Shown piece after piece: positions 35,932 to 51,920 of a stretch of 52,162 nucleotides of DNA. Source of the stretch: Lachnospiraceae bacterium (GTDB lineage Bacteria; Bacillota; Clostridia; Lachnospirales; Lachnospiraceae); NCBI GenBank assembly GCA_017444015.1, contig JAFSXN010000037.1, positions 1 through 52,162 of the forward strand, written 5' to 3'. The number at the start of each line of letters is the position of its first letter. The stretch's first letter is position 1. The notes under the pieces were generated by a model, which was given only the letters and a program-made list of their open reading frames with translations, made no database searches and was not told the origin of the DNA. Position numbers and translations under genes: made by a program.

Positions 35932-37068
35932 TCAGAGTTTCTTGTAAAAATCATTGACTGCTTCTATTACCTTGAATTTTCTGTCGCCCATCTGATAATA
36001 TAGCGGAAGCCGCAGTAGACGGTCGCTTTCTCTTGTCGTATAACGATCTTCTCCGACGAATCTCCCGAAATTTTTCCCTGCAGGAGCGGTATGTAACGGA
36101 ACATAATGAAAAACAGCGCCAATCCCTCTTTCCTTTAAATAAGCAATCAATCTTGTACGTTCTTCCAGATCCCTTGCTTTTAAATAGAAGATATGTCCAT
36201 TATGCCCACACTCTTCCGGTACATATGGCAATTCGATCATTCCACTGTCCCTGAGCCCCTTCAGACCATCAAAATATGAGTTCCAGGAGTCCAGACGGTC
36301 CTCTGTTATTTTTTCTGCCTCCTCCAGCTGCCCCCATAGGTAGGCAGCGTTCAGATCGCTGGGCAAATAGGAAGAGCCCGCATCCACCCAGGTATATTTA
36401 TCTATCTCACCACGGAAAAATTTACTACGGTTGGTTCCCTTTTCGCGAATTATCTCAGCCCTTTCAATGTTCTCAGCATCCCGGATCAGAAGTGCTCCTC
36501 CCTCTCCCATCGAAAAGTTCTTGGTCTCATGAAAGCTATAGCAACCAAAATTACCCAGGGTTCCCAACACATTGCCTTTATAGGTACTCATTACGCCCTG
36601 CGCCGCGTCCTCAATTACCGTTAGTCCATACCCCCTTGCGAGCGACAGAATACTGTCCATCTCGCATGAGACACCTGCATAATGCATCGGTATAATAGCC
36701 TTTGTCTTGTCTGTAATAGCTTCCTCGATCTTATTCTCATCCAGATTCATCGTATCCGGACGAATATCGACAAAAACCACTCTTGCCCCTCGAAGAACAA
36801 AGGCATTAGCAGTAGAAACAAAGGTAAACGAGGCCATAATGACTTCGTCTCCTGACTGGATATTGGCAAGTAACGCCGCCATTTCTGTAGCGTGTGTACA
36901 GGAGGTCGTCAGAAAAACCTTTCTGGAACCAGTTCTCTTTTCCAGGAAATCACTGCATTTTCTTGTATATACCCCATCACCGCTGATCTTATGACTGTGC
37001 ATAGCTTCAATAATATATTTCTCGCTTTTCTCAGTATAGATCGGCTGATTAAATGGTATTACGTCCAT
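35932..37068 (-). CDS. rffA: dTDP-4-amino-4,6-dideoxygalactose transaminase (RffA/WecE-type)
   Basis: A 378-residue DegT/DnrJ/EryC1/StrS PLP aminotransferase that probably aminates C4 of dTDP-4-keto-6-deoxyglucose to give dTDP-Fuc4N. It is strikingly like enterobacterial RffA: MDVIPFNQPIYT at the start, DEVIMASFTFVSTANAFVLR, VIEDAAQGVMSTYKG, FHETKNFSMGEGG with PLP lysine Lys183, EIIREKGTNRSKFFRG, and GEDRYTTRESDRLLRLPL. It lies six bases after a second aminotransferase. No glucose-1-phosphate thymidylyltransferase or 4,6-dehydratase gene is in the window. Confidence 0.88.
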   Translation of the reverse strand: MDVIPFNQPIYTEKSEKYIIEAMHSHKISGDGVYTRKCSDFLEKRTGSRKVFLTTSCTHATEMAALLANIQSGDEVIMASFTFVSTANAFVLRGARVVFVDIRPDTMNLDENKIEEAITDKTKAIIPMHYAGVSCEMDSILSLARGYGLTVIEDAAQGVMSTYKGNVLGTLGNFGCYSFHETKNFSMGEGGALLIRDAENIERAEIIREKGTNRSKFFRGEIDKYTWVDAGSSYLPSDLNAAYLWGQLEEAEKITEDRLDSWNSYFDGLKGLRDSGMIELPYVPEECGHNGHIFYLKARDLEERTRLIAYLKERGIGAVFHYVPLHTAPAGKNFGRFVGEDRYTTRESDRLLRLPLYYQMGDRKFKVIEAVNDFYKKL

Positions 37069-37073
37069 CGTTT

Positions 37074-38207
37074 TTACCTTTCCATTTGTATTATAAGCTC
37101 ACAGATCCGATCCACATCCGATAAGGAGAGGTCCGCATATAGAGGGAGTGTCAGAACCTTTTTACTAACGGACATCGTAATCGGCGTTTCGAACGGATCG
37201 TATTCCGTACGGTAGCATTCAAACGCATTCGTCGGCGGATAAAAATATTTTCTGGCAAAGATCCCCTTCTCCCGTAGCCTTTCTGCCACCTGATCCCTGG
37301 AAGCTCCGAAGACGTCTTCGTCAAACAGTACCGGAAAATAGGCGTAATTTGACTTTACATCCTTCTGGACTTTGTTCAATACGATCCCTTTGACTTTGGA
37401 AAGCCTTTCCCTGTATCGTGAGACAACTTTTTCTCTCTTTGCGATCTCTTCGTTAATATGTCGCAGATTGCAGAGCCCCATCGCCGCGCAGAATTCATTC
37501 AGCTTTGCGTTTGCCCCGATCGCTTCTACCTGATCCTCTCTGCTGATCCCGAAATCCTTCAGTAAATAGATCTGCTCGCCAAAATCTTTATCCCTGCTTG
37601 AATAACAGACAGCACCGCCCTCGATCGTATTGAAAACCTTTGTCGCATGAAAGCTGAAGCAGGAAGCATCCCCATAGGAACCGATCCCTTTGCCCCGACA
37701 GGTCACGCCGAAGGTATGCGCCGCGTCATAGATCACCTTCAGACCATACTCCCGGGCAATTTTATCAATTTCATCCACCTGGCAGACATTTCCGTAGACA
37801 TGGACAGGCAGGATCGCTGCGGTCCGATCCGTGATCCGCTCTCTGAGTTTTTTCGGATCGATGGTATAGGTCTCAGGGTCGATATCACAGAAAACAGGCT
37901 TCAATCCGCTTCGGACAATAGCATGGGTCGTTGACGCAAAGGTGAACGGAGTCGTTATTACCTCTCCCTTAAGATGAAAGCCCAAAAGCGCCAGTTCGAT
38001 CGCCATATGACCGTTCGTAAACAGTTCGATTTCTTCTACACCCAGATATTCCCGAAGCTCAGAACGAAGCCGTTCGTGCTTCCTTCCCATATTCGTAAGC
38101 CAGTGATCGTCCCACATAGAACGGATCTCATCGATATATTCCTCAAACTCCGGCAACGAAGATCTTGTTACTAAGATATTTTCCTGCATAATAGAGTCAC
38201 AATCCAT
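37074..38207 (-). CDS. DegT-family sugar aminotransferase (VioA/Qui4N-like)
   Basis: 377 residues, another PLP aminotransferase of the DegT family: WDDHWLTNMG, TTPFTFASTTHAIVRSGLKP, VIYDAAHTFGV with Asp161, SFHATKVFNTIEGG with Lys190 as PLP site, and AKLNEFCAAMGLCN. The pattern resembles VioA-type enzymes that make dTDP-4-amino-4,6-dideoxyglucose; a 3-amino sugar is the alternative. The start is uncertain: ATG 38207 or 38189 (MQENILVTRSS), neither with a clear Shine-Dalgarno. A promoter lies just upstream. The sugar presumably enters a surface glycan made by the neighbouring genes. Confidence 0.82.
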   Translation of the reverse strand: MDCDSIMQENILVTRSSLPEFEEYIDEIRSMWDDHWLTNMGRKHERLRSELREYLGVEEIELFTNGHMAIELALLGFHLKGEVITTPFTFASTTHAIVRSGLKPVFCDIDPETYTIDPKKLRERITDRTAAILPVHVYGNVCQVDEIDKIAREYGLKVIYDAAHTFGVTCRGKGIGSYGDASCFSFHATKVFNTIEGGAVCYSSRDKDFGEQIYLLKDFGISREDQVEAIGANAKLNEFCAAMGLCNLRHINEEIAKREKVVSRYRERLSKVKGIVLNKVQKDVKSNYAYFPVLFDEDVFGASRDQVAERLREKGIFARKYFYPPTNAFECYRTEYDPFETPITMSVSKKVLTLPLYADLSLSDVDRICELIIQMER

Positions 38208-39221: not shown

Positions 39222-39947
39222 TCAGCAGGAGAATTCATCAATCTCCTTATTGAGTCTTCGAAAGTCCGATAACGCCTGTTTTCCTATTTTGAAGATCCGT
39301 TTCATATTGATCGAATTGACTCCGCCCTGCCTCGGCCGGAAGGTGATCGGGATGTATTTGACTCTGCAGCCCTTCTTTGCATAGATCACCGAAATCAGTA
39401 CATTCGAAAGAAAAAAATTCTCCGGGATCAGAGCAAAATAGCGTTTTAAGGTTTCTGTCTTCATCAGCCGAAAGGGCGTATTGGCATCTGTCACGCGGAC
39501 GTGAAAACAAAGCCGGATGACTGCCCGAAGCGTCCTTGTCACAAAAACCCGCGAGGTTCCGTCCTGTCTTCCCTTACGGCTTCCAATCACCATATCGTAC
39601 GCTTCCTTCTGTTCCCAGAACGGTTCAAATTCCTCCGGCAGGGTCTGTCCGTCCGAATCCGTCTGAAAGATATAATCCGCGCCATTGTCGATGGCAAAAC
39701 GATACCCGAAGATCAGCGTCGCTCCATGTCCCCCGTTCTCCTTTGTAAGCGGCATTAAAAGCGGTCTTGTTTCCGCAAGCTCCAAAAGCTTTTCATAGGT
39801 TGAATCCTTACTTCCGTCGTTAATGATCACCAGACGGGAGGTGTTGTCGCCGCTATGACGTTCTATGACCGGATACCAGTCATTAACGACCGTTTCTATG
39901 TTTTCTTCCTCATTATAGGCGGGGATGATAATATACAGCTTCTCCAT
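39222..39947 (-). CDS. GT2 glycosyltransferase (dolichol-phosphate mannose synthase-like)
   Basis: 241 residues, a single GT-A domain without membrane helices. LYIIIPAYNEEENI opens it, VIINDGSKDST and NGGHGATLIFGYRFA follow, and QTDSDGQTLPEEF contains the metal-binding acidic motif. The C-terminal IPITFRPRQGGVNSINMKR is usual in the family. It likely loads a sugar onto a polyprenyl phosphate. AAGAAGG precedes the ATG. It is divergent from the MBOAT gene. Confidence 0.85.
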   Translation of the reverse strand: MEKLYIIIPAYNEEENIETVVNDWYPVIERHSGDNTSRLVIINDGSKDSTYEKLLELAETRPLLMPLTKENGGHGATLIFGYRFAIDNGADYIFQTDSDGQTLPEEFEPFWEQKEAYDMVIGSRKGRQDGTSRVFVTRTLRAVIRLCFHVRVTDANTPFRLMKTETLKRYFALIPENFFLSNVLISVIYAKKGCRVKYIPITFRPRQGGVNSINMKRIFKIGKQALSDFRRLNKEIDEFSC

Positions 39948-40078: not shown

Positions 40079-41692
40079 ATGAGCCTGATATCCGTAGAAT
40101 TTTTTGTATTCTTCCTTATTACTATAATAGTATATTTTATCCTTCCAGGCAAGCTGCAATGGATCTGGCTTTTTTTAGCAGGTGTTTTTTTCTACTGGAA
40201 GAATTCGACACCTGTTCAGATGCTGATTTTTTTAGCCATACTGCTGGTCAATTACCTCTCGACCGTTTTCGTTTTCACTGTCGTTGACGTTTCTTCAGAG
40301 GATAGTGCGGGAAATCACAGATTTCTTTCCGAAACAACAGCCTACCGGATCGCTCTGATCACAGATATCTGTTGTCTCGTTGTTTTTAAATATGCCGGCT
40401 TTTTCCTCCGTCTGTTTAACGGCATTCTGAAAATTTTCTCCACGGGGATGAGCGACGACAGGATCTCCTCCTTGGTGGCTCCTCTGGAACTGCTGTCTCC
40501 TCCGAGGATATCCTATTTTATTCTGATCATCATCGGTTATATCACAGATGTCCACTGGGAAAGGATCAAGCCGCTCAAGAATCCCTGCAGATTCGCTCTG
40601 CTTGCCTCCTATTTCCCCCTGATGACCTCCGGTCCCATCGTTGAATATGATCAGGTCGGCACTTCCCTTTTTAATGAAGAAAAAAATCATTTTTCCTACG
40701 ACCGGACAATCCGCGGCCTGATGCGTATCCTCTGGGGACTCTTTAAAAAGCTGGTGATCTCAGAACGTTTTGCCGTGATCGTCAATACGATCTACTCCTT
40801 CTATGAAACCTATCCGGGTTTTTATATCCTGGTCGGCGCTTCCTGCTTTGCCATTCAGCTGTATACGGATTTCTCCGGACTTATGGATATCGTTCTCGGA
40901 ATTTCCGAAACCTTAGGCATTATTCTTCCGGAAAACTTTCGTACGCCGTTTTATTCGCTTTCCCTTGCTGAATTCTGGCGGCGCTGGCATATCACGCTCG
41001 GCGGATGGCTGAAGGATTACGTATTCTATGCCGTTCAGCGTACCAGGCTCTTCACCGGGCTCAGGAAATTCTGTAAGAAAAAGCTGGGAAGGGGCTACGA
41101 AAAGAAATATAATATCCCTCAATTCCTGGGACTTTTGATCTCCTGGTTTCTGATCGGTCTCTGGCATGGCGGCGGTCTGAATTATATCTTCGGAGTCGGC
41201 CTCTATATGGGGATCATTATTATCCTCAGTGAGCTTTTTTCTCCGTTTCTTCAAAAACTGGTCTCCTGGCTTCATATTCGTACAGACTGCTTCAGCTACC
41301 GCCTCTTTCAGCGGATCAGAACCTTCTTTATATTTATTTTCGGCTTATCCTTCTTCCGGGCTTCTTCTTTAACCGATGGCTTTAAAATGTGGAAAAGCGC
41401 TTTTTCCCTGTTCAATCCCTGGATCTTCTTTGACCGGTCCCTTTACGAGCTCGGTTTAACTGAGTCCGAGATTTTCATTGCGCTCTTCTCTCTTCTGCTG
41501 TTATTCATCGTTTCTTATTTTCAGCACCGTGAAGAAACAGCGGAAAGCGGTCTCTGTGTGAGAGATCTTATAATGAAGCAAAATGTTGTGTTCCGTTTTC
41601 TTCTGTTCTGGTGCCTGTCGATTGCGACATTCCTGTGGGGATATTACGGAACCTCGTTTAACGCGGCTGATTTTATATACGGAAGGTTTTAG
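40079..41692 (+). CDS. MBOAT-family membrane O-acyltransferase (AlgI/DltB-like)
   Basis: 537 residues with about 11 membrane helices. LYTDFSGLMDIVLGISETLG near 261-280, FRTPFYSLSLAEFWRRWHIT at 287-306 and LWHGGGLNYI with the catalytic His363 are the family motifs. These enzymes pass an acyl group (usually acetyl or D-alanyl) across the membrane to a secreted polymer, together with an extracellular SGNH or DltD-type partner. That partner is the next gene, three bases away. No dltA or dltC is present, so acetyl transfer to a surface glycan is more likely than D-alanylation. The RBS is weak. Confidence 0.9.
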   Translation: MSLISVEFFVFFLITIIVYFILPGKLQWIWLFLAGVFFYWKNSTPVQMLIFLAILLVNYLSTVFVFTVVDVSSEDSAGNHRFLSETTAYRIALITDICCLVVFKYAGFFLRLFNGILKIFSTGMSDDRISSLVAPLELLSPPRISYFILIIIGYITDVHWERIKPLKNPCRFALLASYFPLMTSGPIVEYDQVGTSLFNEEKNHFSYDRTIRGLMRILWGLFKKLVISERFAVIVNTIYSFYETYPGFYILVGASCFAIQLYTDFSGLMDIVLGISETLGIILPENFRTPFYSLSLAEFWRRWHITLGGWLKDYVFYAVQRTRLFTGLRKFCKKKLGRGYEKKYNIPQFLGLLISWFLIGLWHGGGLNYIFGVGLYMGIIIILSELFSPFLQKLVSWLHIRTDCFSYRLFQRIRTFFIFIFGLSFFRASSLTDGFKMWKSAFSLFNPWIFFDRSLYELGLTESEIFIALFSLLLLFIVSYFQHREETAESGLCVRDLIMKQNVVFRFLLFWCLSIATFLWGYYGTSFNAADFIYGRF

Positions 41693-41695
41693 CGT

Positions 41696-43312
41696 ATGGA
41701 TCCAAGACGAATAAACCTGATCAAAGCAATATTCATTATAGTAATCGCTGTCGTAACATATGTTATGCTGGATAGGATCCTCCTTCTGAAAAGCGAGGAC
41801 GGCATCGAGCAGATCAAAGCAATGTATCAGCAGGAGGAGGATTCCATCGATGTTCTCTTTGTCGGGACCTCTCATACCTACTGTCACGCAAATACCGGTC
41901 TTCTCTGGAGCGAATTCGGAATTTCCGCCTATAATCTGGGCGGAGCCGAGCAGCCCTATTGGAATACATATTATTATATCAAAGAGGCCTTGAAGACACA
42001 GCGGCCCGATCTCATCGCCTTTGAATTTACCGGACCCGGAACGATTCAGACACAATATCAGAACGAAAACTGGTTTGTGACAAATAATTACGGGCTCAAA
42101 CGAAACGCAAACCGATATGAGTCTATGAAGGTCAGCTCTGCTGCTTCCGACTTTCCAAAGCGCCTGATCCCGTTAAATATCATCCATGGGCGCTACGCGG
42201 ATCTGACAGCCGACGATTTTATCGATAAGGATAATACGATTAATTTCAAGGGCTTTGACCCGAGAGAAACTCTGGTGCGCTTTGATACGCCACAATTAGG
42301 AGCTACAAATGAACGGGCTCCGCTGTTAGAAAAGGAAGAGGTCTGGCTCAGAAGACTCATCGAATACGTGCAGTCTGAGGAGATCCCCCTGCTTCTGTTC
42401 TGCTCCCCCTACTATATTACTCCAGAGGATCAGGCCCTCTATAATACCGTGTACGATATTGCCGCGGAATATGAGGTTCCGTGCGTAGATTTCAATCTGT
42501 TCTATAACGAAATGAATCTGGATTTTGCCACCGATATGGCGGAAGAGCTGCATCTGAACCGGGTCGGAAACGCGAAATTCTCCCTCTTTTTGGGAGCCTT
42601 TCTTCAGAATGTCTATGATATCGCCGATCATCGGGAGGAAGGAACAAGCAAAGACAGTATCTACTATTCCTGGAATCGTGAAGCCCTCTATCAACAGCAG
42701 AGCAACGCTTCCTGGTATATTCGCAATGTCTATCATCCCGATAAATATTTTACACTGTTTTTGGACGATACGGTACCTGAGATCAACGAATATATGACAA
42801 ATTACGATCCTTCCAAAGACGACGAGATAAACGATGATCCGGTTTATGAAGACGGTTTGATCCGCTATTTTATGCCCAAAAAGGAAAACTATATCGTTTT
42901 TGTGCAGATCGCGCCGGAAACGACTTCTATTTCAGAGGAACTTCTTGAAAAGCTCTCTGCCATCGGGATCTCCGACCCCGTACCCGGCGGAGCCTATGCT
43001 CTCTGTGACGGAGAAGTCCTGTTCTTTGACGATACCAACAGCTTCAGCTATACGTATTATGACCAAAAAAACCGAATCACTCTTTCCAGAGTTCCATCCG
43101 ATGATTCCGGAAAAATGAAGGCTGTTTACTCTCCGGAGTATCGGACCTCTGTCCGGATCCTCGGAGATGTTATCCCCCTTGACAAGGAAGAGGTGGCGAT
43201 CACGGTTTATGACAAGGTACTCCACAAGTTGGTAGATAACCTGGTAATCGGCACCGATCCCGATTCCTATTATATCCGGCATAATGAAATCGAGCCGGAT
43301 GAAATCGAGTAG
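41696..43312 (+). CDS. SGNH-like extracytoplasmic partner of the MBOAT protein
   Basis: 538 residues: one N-terminal membrane segment (about 8-30), then an outside domain with FVGTSHTYCHANTG (putative Ser59 nucleophile, GTSH motif), YNLGGAEQPYW and EELHLNRVG with His286, the pattern of AlgX/DltD-type SGNH proteins. A Glu stands where a DxxH Asp would be expected. The C-terminal 200 residues are beta-rich and of unknown role. It probably completes acyl transfer from the membrane enzyme. GGAAGG at the end of the upstream gene serves as RBS. A repeat cluster and a terminator follow. Confidence 0.75.
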   Translation: MDPRRINLIKAIFIIVIAVVTYVMLDRILLLKSEDGIEQIKAMYQQEEDSIDVLFVGTSHTYCHANTGLLWSEFGISAYNLGGAEQPYWNTYYYIKEALKTQRPDLIAFEFTGPGTIQTQYQNENWFVTNNYGLKRNANRYESMKVSSAASDFPKRLIPLNIIHGRYADLTADDFIDKDNTINFKGFDPRETLVRFDTPQLGATNERAPLLEKEEVWLRRLIEYVQSEEIPLLLFCSPYYITPEDQALYNTVYDIAAEYEVPCVDFNLFYNEMNLDFATDMAEELHLNRVGNAKFSLFLGAFLQNVYDIADHREEGTSKDSIYYSWNREALYQQQSNASWYIRNVYHPDKYFTLFLDDTVPEINEYMTNYDPSKDDEINDDPVYEDGLIRYFMPKKENYIVFVQIAPETTSISEELLEKLSAIGISDPVPGGAYALCDGEVLFFDDTNSFSYTYYDQKNRITLSRVPSDDSGKMKAVYSPEYRTSVRILGDVIPLDKEEVAITVYDKVLHKLVDNLVIGTDPDSYYIRHNEIEPDEIE

Positions 43313-43433: not shown

Positions 43434-43466
43434 TAAAAAGGAGAACGACCTGCGTTCTCCTTTTTA
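43434..43466. terminator. Bidirectional intrinsic terminator
   Basis: A perfect 13-bp stem, TAAAAAGGAGAAC with GTTCTCCTTTTTA, and a 7-base loop. The A and T runs serve the rightward MBOAT-SGNH unit and the leftward glycosyltransferase, whose stop codon lies in the stem. Confidence 0.9.
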
Positions 43467-44153
43467 TCGGTATTTCCAGATACAGTAAATCGCCCTCAGG
43501 CCATCCCGAAACCCAATCTTTTTCCCTTCCTCCATCGTCCGGGGATGATAGGAGATCGGAACCTCTTTGATCTTGATCCCTAACCTCGTCAGCTTCGCCG
43601 TTATCTCCGGTTCAAAGCCGAATCGTTTTTCCTCGATCTCAATCGACTGTATGATCTCTCTTTTGAAGCATTTATAACAGGTCTCCATATCCGTCAGCTT
43701 CTGGTGCGTAAATAGATTTGACAGAAATGTCAGAAACCTGTTGGCAAAGCGGTTGGCATAATAGCCCTTTGCCCTCTGGTTCAAAAAACGGGAACCATAG
43801 CAGACCTCAGTTTCTCCTGAAGCGACGGGTTCCGCAACTTTCCCGTACTCCATCGGATCATACTCGAGATCAGCATCCTGGACGATGACCAGGTCGCCGG
43901 TGGCGTACCTGAAGCCGGTTCGCAGTGCCCCGCCCTTTCCCGTATTCTCCGCATGATAGATGATCTGATCTACAAGAGGGGCGATCTCCGTCTTAAGTAT
44001 CTCTCTTGTCCCGTCTGAGCTTTTATCGTCTACGATAATGATCTCTTTCTTTTTGACCGGCGAAGCTATGATTCTGTTAATGATATCCCTGATACCGTCC
44101 TTTTCATTATAGCAGGGCACAATAACAGAAAGGACGAAATCCTCCCTATCCAA
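43464..44153 (-). CDS. GT2 glycosyltransferase (polyprenyl-phosphate type)
   Basis: 229 residues, one GT-A domain: LSVIVPCYNEKDGI, IIIVDDKSSDGTREIL, NTGKGGALRTGFRYA and VQDADLEYDPMEY with the acidic metal motif, ending in the usual VPISYHPRTMEEGKKIGF. It resembles dolichol-phosphate mannose synthase-like enzymes without membrane helices. The start codon is TTG (44151-44153), inside the end of trxA by 8 bases, with AAAGGAG just upstream, so its synthesis is tied to trxA translation. Confidence 0.85.
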   Translation of the reverse strand: MDREDFVLSVIVPCYNEKDGIRDIINRIIASPVKKKEIIIVDDKSSDGTREILKTEIAPLVDQIIYHAENTGKGGALRTGFRYATGDLVIVQDADLEYDPMEYGKVAEPVASGETEVCYGSRFLNQRAKGYYANRFANRFLTFLSNLFTHQKLTDMETCYKCFKREIIQSIEIEEKRFGFEPEITAKLTRLGIKIKEVPISYHPRTMEEGKKIGFRDGLRAIYCIWKYR

Positions 44154-44672: not shown

Positions 44673-45671
44673 CTATCTTTTTTCAGATTCCAAAAGCGCT
44701 TTTAGAAAAAGGACCGCCTGATATTCAAGCTCCCGCTCCTTTCTGAGATAAAACGCCTCAGCCGCTCCCTCCGGGATCTCCTCCGACCTCTCGCTTTCTG
44801 CCATTCTTCCCGGGTGGAACAAAATCTCCAGATTCCGTCCCTGCTTTTTAGCATAATTCATAAGCGGGCGAACGAGCTTACCGACTCTCTCCGCATCCAT
44901 TTCCCCGCTCATGATAAGCCCCCATAACAGCATACAGTCTCTTTTGTTCTTTCGATCCTCCGTATCCAGCTTTCCGGAATAAAAAAAGAGGATACGGTTT
45001 TTGACCAGATTGACCGGACGGAAGCTTAAGATCATGGGCCTTCCCTCTATCCGGTTCCTGATTCCCTCGGATAAAAAAGGAAACAACGGCTCTCTGGAAT
45101 TACGGATATATTCCACCGAACCGTTCTCGTTTGCGTTTTCCCTTAGAACCTCTGACAAAGCCTCTCTGACCACCGGGATCAGATGCGTATGCTGATGACT
45201 GTCGATACGAAGACCAAACTGGTCACAGGTGACACCATACTCCTTTGCGATCTCAAGACACCTCTGAATCGTTATCCAGACTTTATTGACCTGACTGGTT
45301 ATTTCCAACTTCAGCTCTTCCTTCAGCCGCCTCCTTCTGTTCGGAAGATAAGAACCCAAAAACAGAGCCTTCCAGTCCGTTGCGATCAAAGGAAGCCCAC
45401 GAACTCCCTCTTTGACAATCTGACTGCTCCGGTCCAGCTCTCCCTCCTTTGCGGCAAGACAAATCCCCTCTACAAGATCCAGATGTACGGACATCCTCGG
45501 CAGAAAGGGCAGAGACGGGATCGCTTCCTGCAGGAGCCTTATGCATTCCTCATAACAGCTCATATTAGGCACTATACTGATGCTGTTTAAGGCCCCTTCC
45601 TTCATAAGAGAAAGCATCTCTTCGGAGGTCCTCATTGTCAGCGCAAAGTCATCCGCATGAATATCGACCAT
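44673..45671 (-). CDS. YdjC/ChbG-family sugar N-deacetylase (NaxD/LgmC-like candidate)
   Basis: A 332-residue metal-dependent amidohydrolase. The N-terminal HADDFAL (His5, Asp7, Asp8), SVHLDLVEG (His63), DSHQHTH (Asp157 to His163) and LFHPG near the C terminus are the metal and catalytic residues of the YdjC/ChbG family. Known members deacetylate chitooligosaccharides, hopanoid sugars (HpnK) or undecaprenyl-phosphate-GalNAc (NaxD). Here it is nine bases after a polyprenyl-phosphate glycosyltransferase gene, so a lipid-linked amino sugar is the most likely substrate. The RBS (GGAG) is 12 bases from the ATG. No signal peptide is seen, as expected for deacetylation on the inner membrane face. 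Confidence 0.85.
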   Translation of the reverse strand: MVDIHADDFALTMRTSEEMLSLMKEGALNSISIVPNMSCYEECIRLLQEAIPSLPFLPRMSVHLDLVEGICLAAKEGELDRSSQIVKEGVRGLPLIATDWKALFLGSYLPNRRRRLKEELKLEITSQVNKVWITIQRCLEIAKEYGVTCDQFGLRIDSHQHTHLIPVVREALSEVLRENANENGSVEYIRNSREPLFPFLSEGIRNRIEGRPMILSFRPVNLVKNRILFFYSGKLDTEDRKNKRDCMLLWGLIMSGEMDAERVGKLVRPLMNYAKKQGRNLEILFHPGRMAESERSEEIPEGAAEAFYLRKERELEYQAVLFLKALLESEKR

Positions 45672-45680
45672 AGGGTTTTG

Positions 45681-46712
45681 TTACTCCGTTGTTCTTTTTC
45701 GATCTGTATCTGCCCGGTCCCCAATATTCTCCCTCCAGATCACAGAGTCAATGATATAATGGGGACGGTGCTTGGTTTCCATATAGATCTTTCCGATATA
45801 TTCTCCGATCACTCCCAGGGACAGAAGAATCACTCCCGCTGCGATCAGGGTAACGATCAAAAGCGTCGTATACCCGGGCACGTTTTTCCCAAGGATCCAG
45901 TCCGCTACAGCCACAATACACATCACAACGCTTAACAGGACGACGATGCAGCCGATCAGACTGATGAGATGTAAAGGTCTCGTGCTGAAGGAAGTGATCC
46001 CGTCCATGGCAAGCGTCAGCATCTTCTTTAAGGTATATTTGGAACTTCCGGCTTCCCGTTCCTTTACATCAAAGTATACAATATCTGAAGGAAACCCCAT
46101 GGCAGGGATCAGGCCGCGCAGGAACAGGTTGACTTCCCTGTAATCCGAAAGCGCGTCTAAGACCTTTTTAGAAACCAGCCGATAATCCGCATGGTTTGTG
46201 ATAACATTGCTCCCAAGTCCCTGCATCAGCTTATAGTAGAGAGAAGCTGTGGTTTTTTTCAAAAAGCCATCCGAGCTCCGGTCATTGCGAACCCCGTAAA
46301 CCACCTCGCTGCCTTTCTTATAGCAATCGATAAACCGGTCCAGCGCTTCGATATCCTGCTGGAGATCGGCATCGATGGTTACTACGATATCCGCCCTCTC
46401 CTTTGCGGTCATCATCCCGGCAAGGATCGCGTTTTGATGCCCTCTATTTCCCGCAAGCTTTACAACAGAGCAGCGGGGATCCTCTTTTGTGATCTGACAG
46501 AGCAGTAAAAAGGTTTTATCCGTGCTTCCGTCATCCACAAACAGGACCCGGCTTTCCTCATGGATCTGCTTCTCCTTTGCAAGCCGTTTCAGCTTATCCG
46601 AAAGCACTCCTGCCGATTTTCGAATGATCTCTTCCTCGTTATAGCAGGGGACGACCAGTATCAGCAACGGTCTTTCTCTGTTTTCCCCGATCATTGATCC
46701 ATCCATTGTCAC
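45681..46712 (-). CDS. Polyprenyl-phosphate glycosyltransferase with two membrane helices (GtrB/ArnC-type)
   Basis: 343 residues: a GT2 domain (LLILVVPCYNEEEII, FVDDGSTDKTF, NRGHQNAILAGM, TIDADLQQD) followed by two C-terminal membrane helices (about 235-262 and 272-300), the arrangement of GtrB, CsbB, ArnC and FlmF proteins, which attach a sugar to undecaprenyl phosphate. The segment GSSKYTLKKMLTLAMDGI before the helices is a family hallmark. It overlaps the upstream GT-C gene by 4 bases and precedes the deacetylase by 9, so the three should be made together. Confidence 0.9.
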   Translation of the reverse strand: MTMDGSMIGENRERPLLILVVPCYNEEEIIRKSAGVLSDKLKRLAKEKQIHEESRVLFVDDGSTDKTFLLLCQITKEDPRCSVVKLAGNRGHQNAILAGMMTAKERADIVVTIDADLQQDIEALDRFIDCYKKGSEVVYGVRNDRSSDGFLKKTTASLYYKLMQGLGSNVITNHADYRLVSKKVLDALSDYREVNLFLRGLIPAMGFPSDIVYFDVKEREAGSSKYTLKKMLTLAMDGITSFSTRPLHLISLIGCIVVLLSVVMCIVAVADWILGKNVPGYTTLLIVTLIAAGVILLSLGVIGEYIGKIYMETKHRPHYIIDSVIWRENIGDRADTDRKRTTE

Positions 46713-48415
46713 TCTTTCCTTCTGTATAAAATTGAATACTCCGGAAGCGTCTGATCCGCTTCAAAGCCCTCCGAGATCAGGTACGAAACAATATGCGGCC
46801 AGTCATCGTGAATGATATATACGGCATTTTCCTCTACGTTCAGCTCATCCGGAAGCTTTGCCGTAGCTCTCCCGTAGGACGGCTCTTCATCACTGTAAAC
46901 CTCCCCCTTCTCTCCCGCGAAATAATAGGTCTGCTGGTAGGAAGAGATCGCGCCATCCGCAAACTGTATATAAATATGCGTATTTTCATCCGTAAGATAC
47001 TGCTCCTCACTTTTCAGGATCGCTTTGCCCGGGGAGGCGCTGGTATACAGCGGATGGTACCCATAGACAGCATTCTGTAAAAAGAAATAGAAATACAGGA
47101 AAAAGGCAAAGGATGCCGAATTCCAGAGAAACAGCCAGATCAGATAAAACGGTCTTGAGGCAAACAGTCTGTATACGGCGATGGCGATAAACAATAAAAA
47201 CGGCATAAACAGCTCATTCACCCGGTTGACGTTGGGTTTTGTCACAAGAAGCATAAACACCGTAGCCCCGAACCAGTAGAACAGAAGCAGCGCAGAGACC
47301 GTAAAGCTCCTCTCCCGAAGTGAGCGGACCAGATCCTTTATACAGATCACAAAGCCCGCAAGCACAAAGGGCAGAAGAAACAGATAGATCGTTCCAAACT
47401 CCTTAAACGAATTATAGGTCAGCTCCTCGCCTCCTAAAAACAATTCCCTGAAAAACGAAAGATTAATACAGATATTGGAAAGGCTGACCTCCTGCTCCCT
47501 CGGGATCGGCAGCGGAAAGAAATCAGAGATCAGAGTAGAAAACCCCGGAATGATCTTAAAGTTGACCAGCTGGAACAAAACAAGCGGAAAGGCTAAGAGC
47601 CCTAACGGGATACCCAGTAAAAGCACCCGCTTTACGCTCAGCTTCCTTACTCGGATCAGGTAAATTCCGGTCAAAAGCAGAAAGATCGGAAAGACAATAT
47701 AGGATACCGCGTAGGTATAGAGGGAAAAGCCCATGACCAGTCCGGTCATTATCCAATCCCGATCCCTCTCATATTTTACTGCACGGATCGCAAAGTACAT
47801 AACAAAGGAAGAAAACGGAAGAAACAGATATGCCTCAAGTCCCCACCGTTCGGACATCAGATAGACCGGCATCGTAGTAACTAAAAGCGGCCCGAGCAGC
47901 GCCCACCCGTAGCTGCCTGTGATCTCATAACAGATCCCGAACATGGCAAAAAAGCAGAGCGCTCCCCAGAAAACAGCCTGGATCCGGAAGGAAAAGATCG
48001 TAGAAGGCAGGAAATTCAGCAGAACAGCCTCAACATAGGTATAAAGCGCGTTCTGTCCCCCGCCGTAATTCTGAAAATACACCGGATACCGGATACCGGA
48101 ACGGTCAGTGCCGTTGTCCCGGATACTCTTGGCATCCACCGCCATAGATAATTCATCCACATGGAATCCGTTCGGAAAGGAATCCAGTTTGAAAATCCGG
48201 GTAAACAAAAAAACCGCAAAAATCAGCAGAAGGATCACAAGATAATATCTGGTGATCCACTGACCCAGACGAAACATTATTTTGACCGATTCGGTCGATT
48301 CCATCTCCGGTGCCGTACCGCTCTCTGCTTCTGCCTGCTTTTGTCCTTTGAAATACGGTACTGCCGCAAACAGCAACGTGAGTACCAGCCCGGTTACCGC
48401 AAATAACTGAAACAT
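46709..48415 (-). CDS. GT-C glycosyltransferase (GT39/ArnT-like)
   Basis: 568 residues with about 12 membrane helices and a soluble C-terminal domain. The first outside loop contains FPNGFHVDELS with the acidic pair Asp87/Glu88 where PMT/ArnT-type enzymes keep their catalytic Asp; LMSERWGLEAYLFLP follows. Such enzymes take a sugar from polyprenyl phosphate and put it on an extracellular acceptor. Gene order with the GT2 and deacetylase suggests it uses their lipid-linked sugar. GAGGGAAAG precedes the ATG. An N-terminal helix plus charged segment (residues 1-48) precedes the usual first helix. Confidence 0.8.
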   Translation of the reverse strand: MFQLFAVTGLVLTLLFAAVPYFKGQKQAEAESGTAPEMESTESVKIMFRLGQWITRYYLVILLLIFAVFLFTRIFKLDSFPNGFHVDELSMAVDAKSIRDNGTDRSGIRYPVYFQNYGGGQNALYTYVEAVLLNFLPSTIFSFRIQAVFWGALCFFAMFGICYEITGSYGWALLGPLLVTTMPVYLMSERWGLEAYLFLPFSSFVMYFAIRAVKYERDRDWIMTGLVMGFSLYTYAVSYIVFPIFLLLTGIYLIRVRKLSVKRVLLLGIPLGLLAFPLVLFQLVNFKIIPGFSTLISDFFPLPIPREQEVSLSNICINLSFFRELFLGGEELTYNSFKEFGTIYLFLLPFVLAGFVICIKDLVRSLRERSFTVSALLLFYWFGATVFMLLVTKPNVNRVNELFMPFLLFIAIAVYRLFASRPFYLIWLFLWNSASFAFFLYFYFFLQNAVYGYHPLYTSASPGKAILKSEEQYLTDENTHIYIQFADGAISSYQQTYYFAGEKGEVYSDEEPSYGRATAKLPDELNVEENAVYIIHDDWPHIVSYLISEGFEADQTLPEYSILYRRKE

Positions 48416-48438
48416 CTTTCCCTCTTTTTCAGATCATT

Positions 48439-48471
48439 CGTAACTGTTCAGTCATAGCCTGAACAGTTACG
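48439..48471. other. 13-bp inverted repeat between the two GT-C genes
   Basis: CGTAACTGTTCAG and CTGAACAGTTACG form a perfect stem around TCATAGC, just past the stop of the upstream GT-C gene. There is no T run on the coding strand; it may act as an mRNA processing or stability hairpin. Confidence 0.5.
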
Positions 48472-48472
48472 T

Positions 48473-50062
48473 TCATTCTTTTTTGGGGATATAAAAATAC
48501 GTCTCCATGCCCTGTGCTTCTACGAAAACCTCAAACTCATCCGCCAGATCGTAATTTTCCTCAAGGAGACTACGGAATTCGTCCTCCTTTCCGAAAATTT
48601 CAAACGGCGTATCAATACTGTCGATCGTTACCAGGGAATACTCCCTGTTCCTGAGCTTTTCAAGCACCATCAGAGCATAATCTTTATATTTATCCTCAAA
48701 CTCATTCACATAGGGGAACAGGAGCTTTAAGATCCCGCTGTCCGCTCTGGTCACCGGGAGATAGCAGAGATCCCCGTGATTGAAATTATAGATACCGTTC
48801 ATTGTCCCGTAATACGCAAGAGGCGACGAAAGAATCATATCCTCGCTCCGGTAGCGGTCAAGCAGGGCGTAAGCCTTCCCCTGCGACTCCTCCCAACGGC
48901 GGATGTACTTCGGCCTCGGACTTAAGGAAAGCGCTGTCGTAAACAAGCCGGCAAAGCAGCAGAGAGAGAATATCACAAGTATTAACATCCAATTCCCCGA
49001 TGTTTGCATAATTCCATGCAGATTATACATGGCAATCAAAATCATTGACGGTATAAGCATAAAATAAAAATACCAAAGATCCGCACCATCGTGTCTGCCC
49101 AGGTAGGTAAGCGCCAAAGCATTAACGATTATATTGACCCAGACATAAGAAAGATTGTTCTCCGAAACCTCCGCGTAGAAATGGGCTTTGTCCGTAAAAA
49201 ACAGGATAGTATGCCTGAGTCCTCCCCACAGAGTCAGAAGAAACACCGGAAAGAACATCACAAACAACCGCTTCCACTTATCCAGAGCATATATAAAGCC
49301 CGCGCTTCCTCCTCCGACTCCGGTAAACATCTCATATAACCGGATCCCCCAGACACTTAAATGGGTCGGAAATACCGCATTGACGATCAGAACAGAGCCC
49401 GCAAACAGGATCGATCCGCTCAGAAGAAAAGTCAGAAGCTTTCTGTTTTTCATCTCAAAGAAGAACACCATAAGACCGATCAGAGCGTAATGCGGCTTCA
49501 GATAGACGATCAGAACCAGGAAAAACGCCCTGAGTACGGTATCAGCATAGGAGACCCTGTTCTCAACGATACTTAAGATCAGAATAAGCATCAGTGTTTC
49601 CGCCAAGGTATCCGGTCTTACGCATAGGAGGCCCCATCTTCTCAAGCAGAAAAACAAAAGGATCGCGGAGTACAGCGAGAGCGTCAGATCTCCCGTCAGT
49701 TTTTTTGTGATCACACCGATCAGGACCATCGATGCCGCCAGGTAGATAAAACCCATAATATACAAAGCGGGCGCAGGCGACAGTCCAAAGACCCTGACTA
49801 AAAGAAGCGCCGGAAATACATTCAAAAAACCACTGTCCAGTACTACTCTCGGAGCCTCATCCGTAGACAGATAGTCCAGCGCATACGGATTGATCCCTTT
49901 CGAGAGATCCTGTACTACCTGGAGTACCGCCCCGTCTCTGTATTCCGCCGGAAAATCATAAAACACAAAGGCCCGGACCAGATAGAAGGAACAGAGAACG
50001 ATACAGACAGCCAGAAGAAGCAGGTTGACTATGCGGGACGTTTCCGTTTGGTTCTTGAACAT
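48473..50062 (-). CDS. Polytopic GT-C-like membrane protein
   Basis: 529 residues with about 11 membrane helices; the first outside loop reads FPAEYRDGAVLQ, with Asp43 at the GT-C catalytic position, and the C-terminal 150 residues are soluble (SPRPKYIRRWEESQ, ending YFYIPKKE). It is probably a glycosyltransferase acting outside the membrane, second of its type in this unit. Its closest family is not clear to me. The putative RBS (AAGGA) is far from the ATG. It is the first gene of the leftward run that leads to the deacetylase. Confidence 0.65.
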   Translation of the reverse strand: MFKNQTETSRIVNLLLLAVCIVLCSFYLVRAFVFYDFPAEYRDGAVLQVVQDLSKGINPYALDYLSTDEAPRVVLDSGFLNVFPALLLVRVFGLSPAPALYIMGFIYLAASMVLIGVITKKLTGDLTLSLYSAILLFFCLRRWGLLCVRPDTLAETLMLILILSIVENRVSYADTVLRAFFLVLIVYLKPHYALIGLMVFFFEMKNRKLLTFLLSGSILFAGSVLIVNAVFPTHLSVWGIRLYEMFTGVGGGSAGFIYALDKWKRLFVMFFPVFLLTLWGGLRHTILFFTDKAHFYAEVSENNLSYVWVNIIVNALALTYLGRHDGADLWYFYFMLIPSMILIAMYNLHGIMQTSGNWMLILVIFSLCCFAGLFTTALSLSPRPKYIRRWEESQGKAYALLDRYRSEDMILSSPLAYYGTMNGIYNFNHGDLCYLPVTRADSGILKLLFPYVNEFEDKYKDYALMVLEKLRNREYSLVTIDSIDTPFEIFGKEDEFRSLLEENYDLADEFEVFVEAQGMETYFYIPKKE

Positions 50063-50184
50063 TACTAAATGCGATCCTTACTATATATTTGTATCTGCCC
50101 GGTTATCCTGGTCAGTCACATATATTTACCATAATCTGCGATTCCGATAAAGTATAGCACAAGATATGGGATTTTACTATAGAT

Positions 50185-50206
50185 TTCTTCTGTGCCGCCC
50201 TGCGCA
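50185..50206. repeat. Exact partial copy of the 43.4-kb repeat
   Basis: The 22 bases from TTCTTCTGTGCC to CCCTGCGCA match 43412-43433 exactly. It contains only the right half of the hairpin, next to the groL terminator. Confidence 0.7.
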
Positions 50207-50241
50207 CAACAAAAGAAGAGACTGCCAAAGCAGCCTCTTCT
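50207..50241 (-). terminator. Intrinsic terminator after groL
   Basis: On the minus strand AGAAGAGGCTGC pairs with GCAGTCTCTTCT (one G-U) around TTTG, followed by a T-rich tail (TTTTGTTG). It lies about 40 bases after the groL stop. Confidence 0.85.
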
Positions 50242-50282
50242 CCGTTTTTAAACCCATATTTACGTATGTCGATCCGACCTGT

Positions 50283-51920
<1,638 letters not shown>

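Follow-up and report, generated by a model that had tools for sequence, protein, structure and literature searches.

The glycosyltransferase gene gt2a (family GT2) and the candidate YdjC-family deacetylase gene ydjC of a Lachnospiraceae bacterium form a conserved gene pair whose membrane transferase partner, of the GT-C kind, is exchangeable between loci. We found the pair in a stretch of 52,162 nucleotides (nt) from contig JAFSXN010000037.1 of the draft assembly GCA_017444015.1; the whole of this stretch is called the window here. Two further genes for GT-C-like membrane proteins, gtcA and gtcB, precede the pair on the same strand. With moderate confidence, we favor reading the locus as a cassette for Gtr-type extracytoplasmic glycosylation that includes a deacetylase of its own. 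The original prediction for this DNA had interpreted it as an aminosugar-transfer system, an interpretation that our analysis supports in part.

Conservation of the GT2-YdjC pair

The window type of ydjC is patchily distributed, occurring in 18 of the 299 genomes sampled from the family (Lachnospiraceae), and a search of plasmid records gave no match to ydjC. A profile built from 18 relatives retrieved 279 ydjC relatives in named genomes, and the best 80 by similarity to the window's ydjC were kept for locus counts. These loci share descent, two of them (L092 and L095) come from one bin, and the samples of loci and of genomes overlap, with L056, L086, L103, L109 and L113 being the same contigs as G193, G060, G003, G107 and G031. 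The loci of the nearest relatives are mostly titled Lachnospiraceae. Since the contig ends before the GT2 position in L057, L076 and L105, 77 of the 80 loci are evaluable, and all 77 have a gt2a-like gene. This gene lies upstream of ydjC on the same strand in 74 loci, at 58-74% identity; the exceptions (L113, L114 and L118) have a GT2 of 29-36% identity only. The two genes overlap or lie within 60 nt of each other in 48 of the 74 loci and within 600 nt in 2, and in the other 24 they are separated by a single gene of about 560 codons. Flanking genes vary between clades while the GT2-ydjC pair persists.

As a control, we used 17 other PF04794 genes, made up of 16 regions from the same family plus the second YdjC copy of the source genome; they were chosen from 31 places with a tandem copy in G065:C76 and window-type genes left out. 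A check of up to four genes to the left and right of each of the 17 revealed no gt2a-like protein (E 1e-10), and one control locus, L214, shows a GH4 and phosphotransferase system (PTS) neighborhood that was confirmed by Pfam. The pairing of GT2 and ydjC is thus more than chance (74/77 versus 0/17), and the co-occurrence survey that the original prediction had suggested shows the deacetylase to be co-conserved with the GT2. A deeper Lachnospiraceae sample of 17 ydjC relatives has a gt2a-like GT2 within 400 nt in 9 loci and within 6 kb in 12, with one more at 6.4 kb (25% identity); the GT2s of L031 and L038 are on the other strand.

On a tree of 77 GT2 proteins, the label for linkage to ydjC needs 4 changes versus 22 in shuffles, with none of 500 shuffles as low, and the linked GT2s appear to form largely their own clade. 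The separation is imperfect, with the unlinked rows L127, L128 and L130 standing beside or among linked ones. The 51 linked rows include L125, L126 and L135, in which the GT2 is at a distance of 3-5.5 kb or belongs to another clade; only every second locus was used from the clade closest to the window, and the unlinked rows are mainly the best-scoring ones. Matches to gt2a at E 1e-90 or better occur in 104 of the 299 family genomes, and, leaving the window aside, the six top matches (54-73% identity) are all in ydjC-bearing genomes.

Protein families and the exchangeable GT-C partner

The ydjC product matches PF04794 at 77.6 bits (cut-off 29.7). Its metal motifs, described as complete in the original prediction, are intact, with HADD at residue 5, DSHQHTH at 157 and HPGR at 286, and an alignment of 50 sequences, the window's among them, shows no variation at H5, D7, D8, H63, D157, H159, H161 and H286. 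R190, N221, K224 and R313 are likewise invariant across the same sequences; a phosphate-binding role for these four residues is only an idea. A hydropathy scan of the protein, run with no signal-peptide predictor, found no hydrophobic segment (0 helices). The protein reaches the cut-off of neither the NCBIfam ChbG equivalog model (24.1 bits, cut-off 227) nor the HpnK model (29.4 bits, cut-off 232.6). A single-sequence search for relatives among solved structures found none, and a profile search found 7vi8, 2i5i and 8jqe.

A tree of 61 YdjC proteins places the 43 window-type rows, which come from six families, on one side of a branch with a Shimodaira-Hasegawa-like approximate likelihood ratio test (SH-aLRT) value of 100, with E. 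coli ChbG and the control genes on the opposite side. The clustering of the deacetylase with ChbG, which the original prediction had named as one half of the outcome that would speak against it, did not occur on this tree, which is quick, unrooted and without bootstrap and which warned of long branches among the controls, including L222, L217, L219 and L215. D-x-H-x-H and HPG are present in 43 of 43 window-type rows; E. coli ChbG has DSHHH and HPA. Unlike in the E. coli chb operon, no PTS or glycoside hydrolase was found among ten neighboring proteins scanned.

The product of gt2a matches PF00535 at 73.2 bits (cut-off 23.3), has two helices by hydropathy scan and aligns, both helices included, to the solved structures of GtrB sll0501 (E 3e-52) and ArnC (E 4e-33), in agreement with its earlier description as a two-helix polyprenyl-phosphate GT2. 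Its closest NCBIfam models are PgfS, at 228.6 bits below the equivalog cut-off of 500, and then ArnC at 147 bits.

Both preceding genes had been predicted to encode GT-C proteins. The gtcB product scores 25.3 bits with PMT_2, just under the cut-off of 26.1; gtcA is called GT-C-like from its topology because it has no Pfam or NCBIfam match, and a profile search of solved structures with gtcA was empty. Hydropathy scans, in which helices are counted by a threshold, gave 16 helices for gtcB and 21 for gtcA, the latter surely an overcount. D87-E88 of gtcB is invariant in eight aligned sequences. Comparison of gtcB with solved structures, by single sequence and by profile, gave nothing convincing, and the profile finds no ArnT. 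Matches to gtcB occur in 26 of the 299 family genomes, above 50% identity only in G193, which is of the same genus. Those to gtcA occur in 5 of the 299, its own genome included, and the one nearest to any ydjC is about 31 kb off at 22% identity, in G193. With matches in 5/299 genomes and none near the pair, gtcA was rejected as a constant member of the cassette.

A recognized GT-C family occurs within 3 kb of the pair in 42 of the 74 loci. LIC_10190 is found in 24, DUF6056 in 13, GtrII in 9, gtcB in 2 and DUF6020 in 1, with several at some loci. The 24 genes lying between GT2 and ydjC are of the LIC_10190 type by BLAST to the L080 protein, and NCBIfam named the L041 copy. The GT-C partner of the GT2-YdjC core is exchangeable. 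Beyond the Lachnospiraceae, GtrII lies directly beside ydjC in 10 of 11 loci of five other clostridial families; the GtrII of L248 is a fragment of a split reading frame, and the eleventh locus, L245, is cut by a contig end. GtrII and GtrA were named by Pfam in L253 and L257 and by BLAST in the rest, and the open reading frames (ORFs) of all relatives come from a simple longest-ORF script. L257 has GtrA, GtrII, ydjC and a GT2 of 33% identity in a row. GtrA is present in the L253 and L257 operons, and gt2a, with its two C-terminal helices, fits the GT2 of the GtrA/GtrB/GT-C scheme.

Proposed pathway and competing explanations

GT2 and YdjC very probably act in one shared pathway. In the mechanism that we propose, the GT2 would load polyprenyl phosphate, on the inner side of the membrane, with an N-acetylhexosamine donated by its uridine diphosphate (UDP) form, and YdjC, taken as cytoplasmic, would N-deacetylate the lipid-bound sugar, its substrate probably being the lipid-phosphate N-acetylhexosamine. 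A flippase encoded elsewhere would turn the lipid over; this is perhaps GtrA, for which the draft genome has a single match, on another contig. A GT-C protein (gtcB, possibly gtcA) would attach the hexosamine, now free and positively charged, to a glycan of the cell surface, for which we tentatively suggest a wall polysaccharide. The chemistry of the families points to N-acetylhexosamine as the sugar.

Like the window's locus, FlmF2, NaxD and FlmK of Francisella and LgmB, LgmC and LgmA of Bordetella combine a GT2, a YdjC-family deacetylase and a GT-C in one pathway. FlmF2 loads N-acetylgalactosamine onto undecaprenyl phosphate, NaxD deacetylates it there and FlmK moves the free hexosamine to lipid A, and LgmB, LgmC and LgmA act in a similar way. 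The window's locus, which is likened to these systems by family and pathway only, differs in its clostridial host and its exchangeable GT-C. If the proposal holds, it also shares lipid loading, deacetylation and transfer to a wall polymer with the mycobacterial PpgS/Rv3779 route, in which Rv3779 is a GT-C; it differs in that gt2a scores only 30.7 bits with the PpgS model (cut-off 370). In the GtrA/GtrB/GtrC scheme, a GT2 acting on polyprenyl phosphate is combined with a flippase and an extracellular membrane transferase; this scheme has no deacetylase step, and no GtrA was found on the window's contig.

NaxD is described as forming galactosamine in the cytoplasm (PMC9431647), and LgmA-C as required for glucosamine on lipid A (PMC4993483). 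The mycobacterial route is reported to load N-acetylgalactosamine on polyprenyl phosphate, flip it and deacetylate it, and then to move galactosamine to arabinogalactan; that flipping and deacetylation are attributed there to unidentified factors (PMC9671496) is a further difference from the window's locus. CsbB/YfhO of Bacillus is likewise described as a GT2 on polyprenyl phosphate with a flippase and an outside membrane transferase (PMC5836110), and it too is without a deacetylase step. In HexSDF of C. difficile, which makes an amino-glycolipid with other enzyme families (PMC10128005), and in GpgSDF of P. aeruginosa, a lipid-borne N-acetylhexosamine is deacetylated to an amino sugar (PMC10128005, PMC12713373), but these papers describe a synthase and a deacetylase of other families, together with a predicted flippase (MprF-like, YbhN-like), and no GT-C. 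The families found in the cassette are not the synthase, deacetylase and flippase families that those papers name. Among the literature matches listed (titles and abstract openings), we found no Gram-positive system of YdjC, GT2 and GT-C. The earlier statement that no characterized Gram-positive version is known is qualified by HexSDF and PpgS/Rv3779, which are partial precedents.

Several observations weigh against the glycosylation cassette as we read it. The gtcB gene lies beside the pair in only 2 of the 74 loci (L056, a G193 contig, and L094; opposite strand), gtcA lies within 3 kb of it in none, and 32 loci have no recognized GT-C within 3 kb. The expected co-conservation of deacetylase and GT-C thus holds for the GT-C kind (42/74) and fails for the window's own two genes. 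No GtrA was found on the window's contig. In the deeper sample, 4 of the 17 ydjC loci are without any gt2a-like gene, and 5 of the 9 close pairs have a GT2 outside the window's clade (34-35% identity in four, 55% in L034). In the other clostridial families, a check of up to five genes to the left and right of ydjC finds a gt2a-like GT2 at just 1 of 11 loci, and 9 of the 11 carry a phosphoglycosyl transferase gene next to ydjC, on its far side. Genes for UDP-glucose dehydrogenase (ugd) and a uronate-epimerase homolog (gae) lie within 4 kb of 48 of the 74 pairs, with gae directly before the GT2 in, for instance, L041 and L109. The epimerase is found at 55-89% identity in 6 of 8 genomes searched, one of which is the window's own, with a 55% homolog on another contig.

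These sugar-nucleotide and phosphoglycosyl transferase genes favor an alternative in which the GT2 and YdjC serve the same locus at different steps, with the GT2 carrying, for example, galacturonic acid and YdjC deacetylating another glycan precursor such as a polyprenyl-diphosphate-N-acetylhexosamine. The epimerase is related to the solved structure 5u4q and to the 6zl6 group, which we take to be UDP-glucuronate 4-epimerases, and the ugd-gae neighbors would suit a galacturonate donor; the phosphoglycosyl transferase of the nine loci suggests that YdjC is able to act on other lipid-linked sugars. However, the pair is retained without the epimerase in G193, a genome listed as 99% complete that has the pair and gtcB and gave no epimerase match, and in G003, with a 35% match only. 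Galacturonate as the obligatory donor for the pair is made unlikely by these two genomes. The pair is also kept without both sugar-nucleotide genes nearby in 26 of the 74 loci, some of which are cut by contig ends. We consider this alternative unlikely, and the window's own cassette, whose genome holds the 55% homolog, could conceivably use a galacturonate donor.

We think it improbable that, instead of a wall polymer, the acceptor is a protein, as in the PgfS system, or a membrane lipid that would become an amino-glycolipid of the HexSDF and GpgSDF kind. PgfS functions in protein glycosylation, and its model is the best-scoring named one for the GT2. Amino-glycolipid pathways exist in both Gram-positives and Gram-negatives (PMC10128005, PMC12713373), but they are described with other families and no GT-C, and the loci scanned here hold sugar transferases, sugar-nucleotide enzymes and MBOAT proteins. 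That ydjC is a catabolic chitooligosaccharide deacetylase (ChbG) lying beside envelope genes by chance is scarcely credible, and we rejected it, since the two share a Pfam family but are set apart by the tree, the ChbG model score, the conserved GT2 linkage and the scanned neighborhood.

The glycosylation cassette with its built-in deacetylase may extend to a broader scheme, about which we are rather doubtful. Window-type YdjC would then be a clostridial family of polyprenyl-phosphate-hexosamine deacetylases, and GT2-YdjC a charge module served by swapped, unrelated GT-C families (PMT_2-like, LIC_10190, DUF6056 and GtrII) that place the amino sugar on different surface glycans, in the role that D-alanylation has elsewhere. 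If so, the same enzyme class would be a candidate for the missing deacetylase in other free-hexosamine pathways. Free amino sugars would alter surface charge, and how the cell reacts to cationic peptides, phages and host lectins would plausibly change with it. Should the proposal be true, a minority of Lachnospiraceae, in line with the 18 of 299 sampled genomes that have this type of ydjC, would present free hexosamine on their surface through a pathway so far associated chiefly with lipid A, and the species doing so would be recognizable by a compact gene pair. Our literature search found no structural work on such surface glycans.

Gene layout and neighboring genes

The four genes are co-directional on the minus strand downstream of groEL (50283-51905), and their predicted positions are exact to the base (Table 1). 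The ORFs bear out the packing described in the original prediction, with 57 nt between gtcA and gtcB, a 4-nt overlap of gtcB and gt2a, and 9 nt between gt2a and ydjC. An alternative ATG two codons into gt2a would change the overlap to a 2-nt gap. The palindrome in the gtcA-gtcB gap has a 27-nt core with 10 copies in the draft genome (at most 2 mismatches), compared with 0 for the reversed control pattern. A consensus scan did not list the possible extended -10 TGCTATACT of the groEL-gtcA intergenic region.

Table 1. Features of the cassette and its surroundings, in window coordinates (aa, amino acids).
Feature	Position	Strand	Description
gtcA	48473..50062	-	529 aa; polytopic membrane protein, GT-C-like by topology only
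gtcB	46709..48415	-	568 aa; GT-C-like membrane transferase
gt2a	45681..46712	-	343 aa, GTG start; polyprenyl-phosphate GT2 with two C-terminal helices (GtrB/ArnC/PgfS type)
ydjC	44673..45671	-	332 aa; window-type YdjC-family N-deacetylase candidate
Palindrome, 33 nt, in gtcA-gtcB gap	48439..48471	.	dispersed repeat; 13-bp hairpin
groEL-gtcA intergenic region	50063..50282	-	terminator-like stem and TGCTATACT, possible extended -10, by eye only
MBOAT-like protein	40079-41692	+	LTA_dltB 115.4 bits, below cut-off 375; no Pfam match
SGNH-like protein (by eye)	41696-43312	+	no Pfam match

The MBOAT-like and SGNH-like genes (40079..43312) converge on the cassette and may or may not belong to it; an MBOAT cluster is found in 66 of the best 80 ydjC loci. 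A search of the draft genome for DltA gave no match above the cut-off and 13 weaker ones, and we rejected true dlt D-alanylation through the neighboring MBOAT on this negative, which is weak because the 3.77-Mb draft (201 contigs) is 94% complete and 5.5% contaminated.

The second YdjC gene of the source genome, L022:7583-8326 (G000:C58), is immediately flanked by a UDP-sugar dehydrogenase gene on one side and a gene for YfhO (PF09586, 293 bits) on the other, and the three share a strand. In Bacillus, yfhO is reported to be required for the glycosylation of lipoteichoic acid (PMC5836110). This second copy lies outside the window type on the YdjC tree, and it hints that YdjC proteins came to be paired with membrane transferases on more than one occasion. 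In several other clostridial families, a conserved operon of GtrII, YdjC and phosphoglycosyl transferase genes is found at nine loci (L253:1896-13853); the L253 operon also encodes GtrA, a GT4, a metallophosphoesterase and a GGDEF protein. Elsewhere in the window, two adjoining genes at 35932-38207 resemble, by eye, DegT-family aminotransferases and may serve to make amino sugars. Additional GT2 genes are located at 39222-39947 and 43464-44153, and fragments at the left contig end (3-1558) resemble, again by eye, an interrupted serine recombinase.

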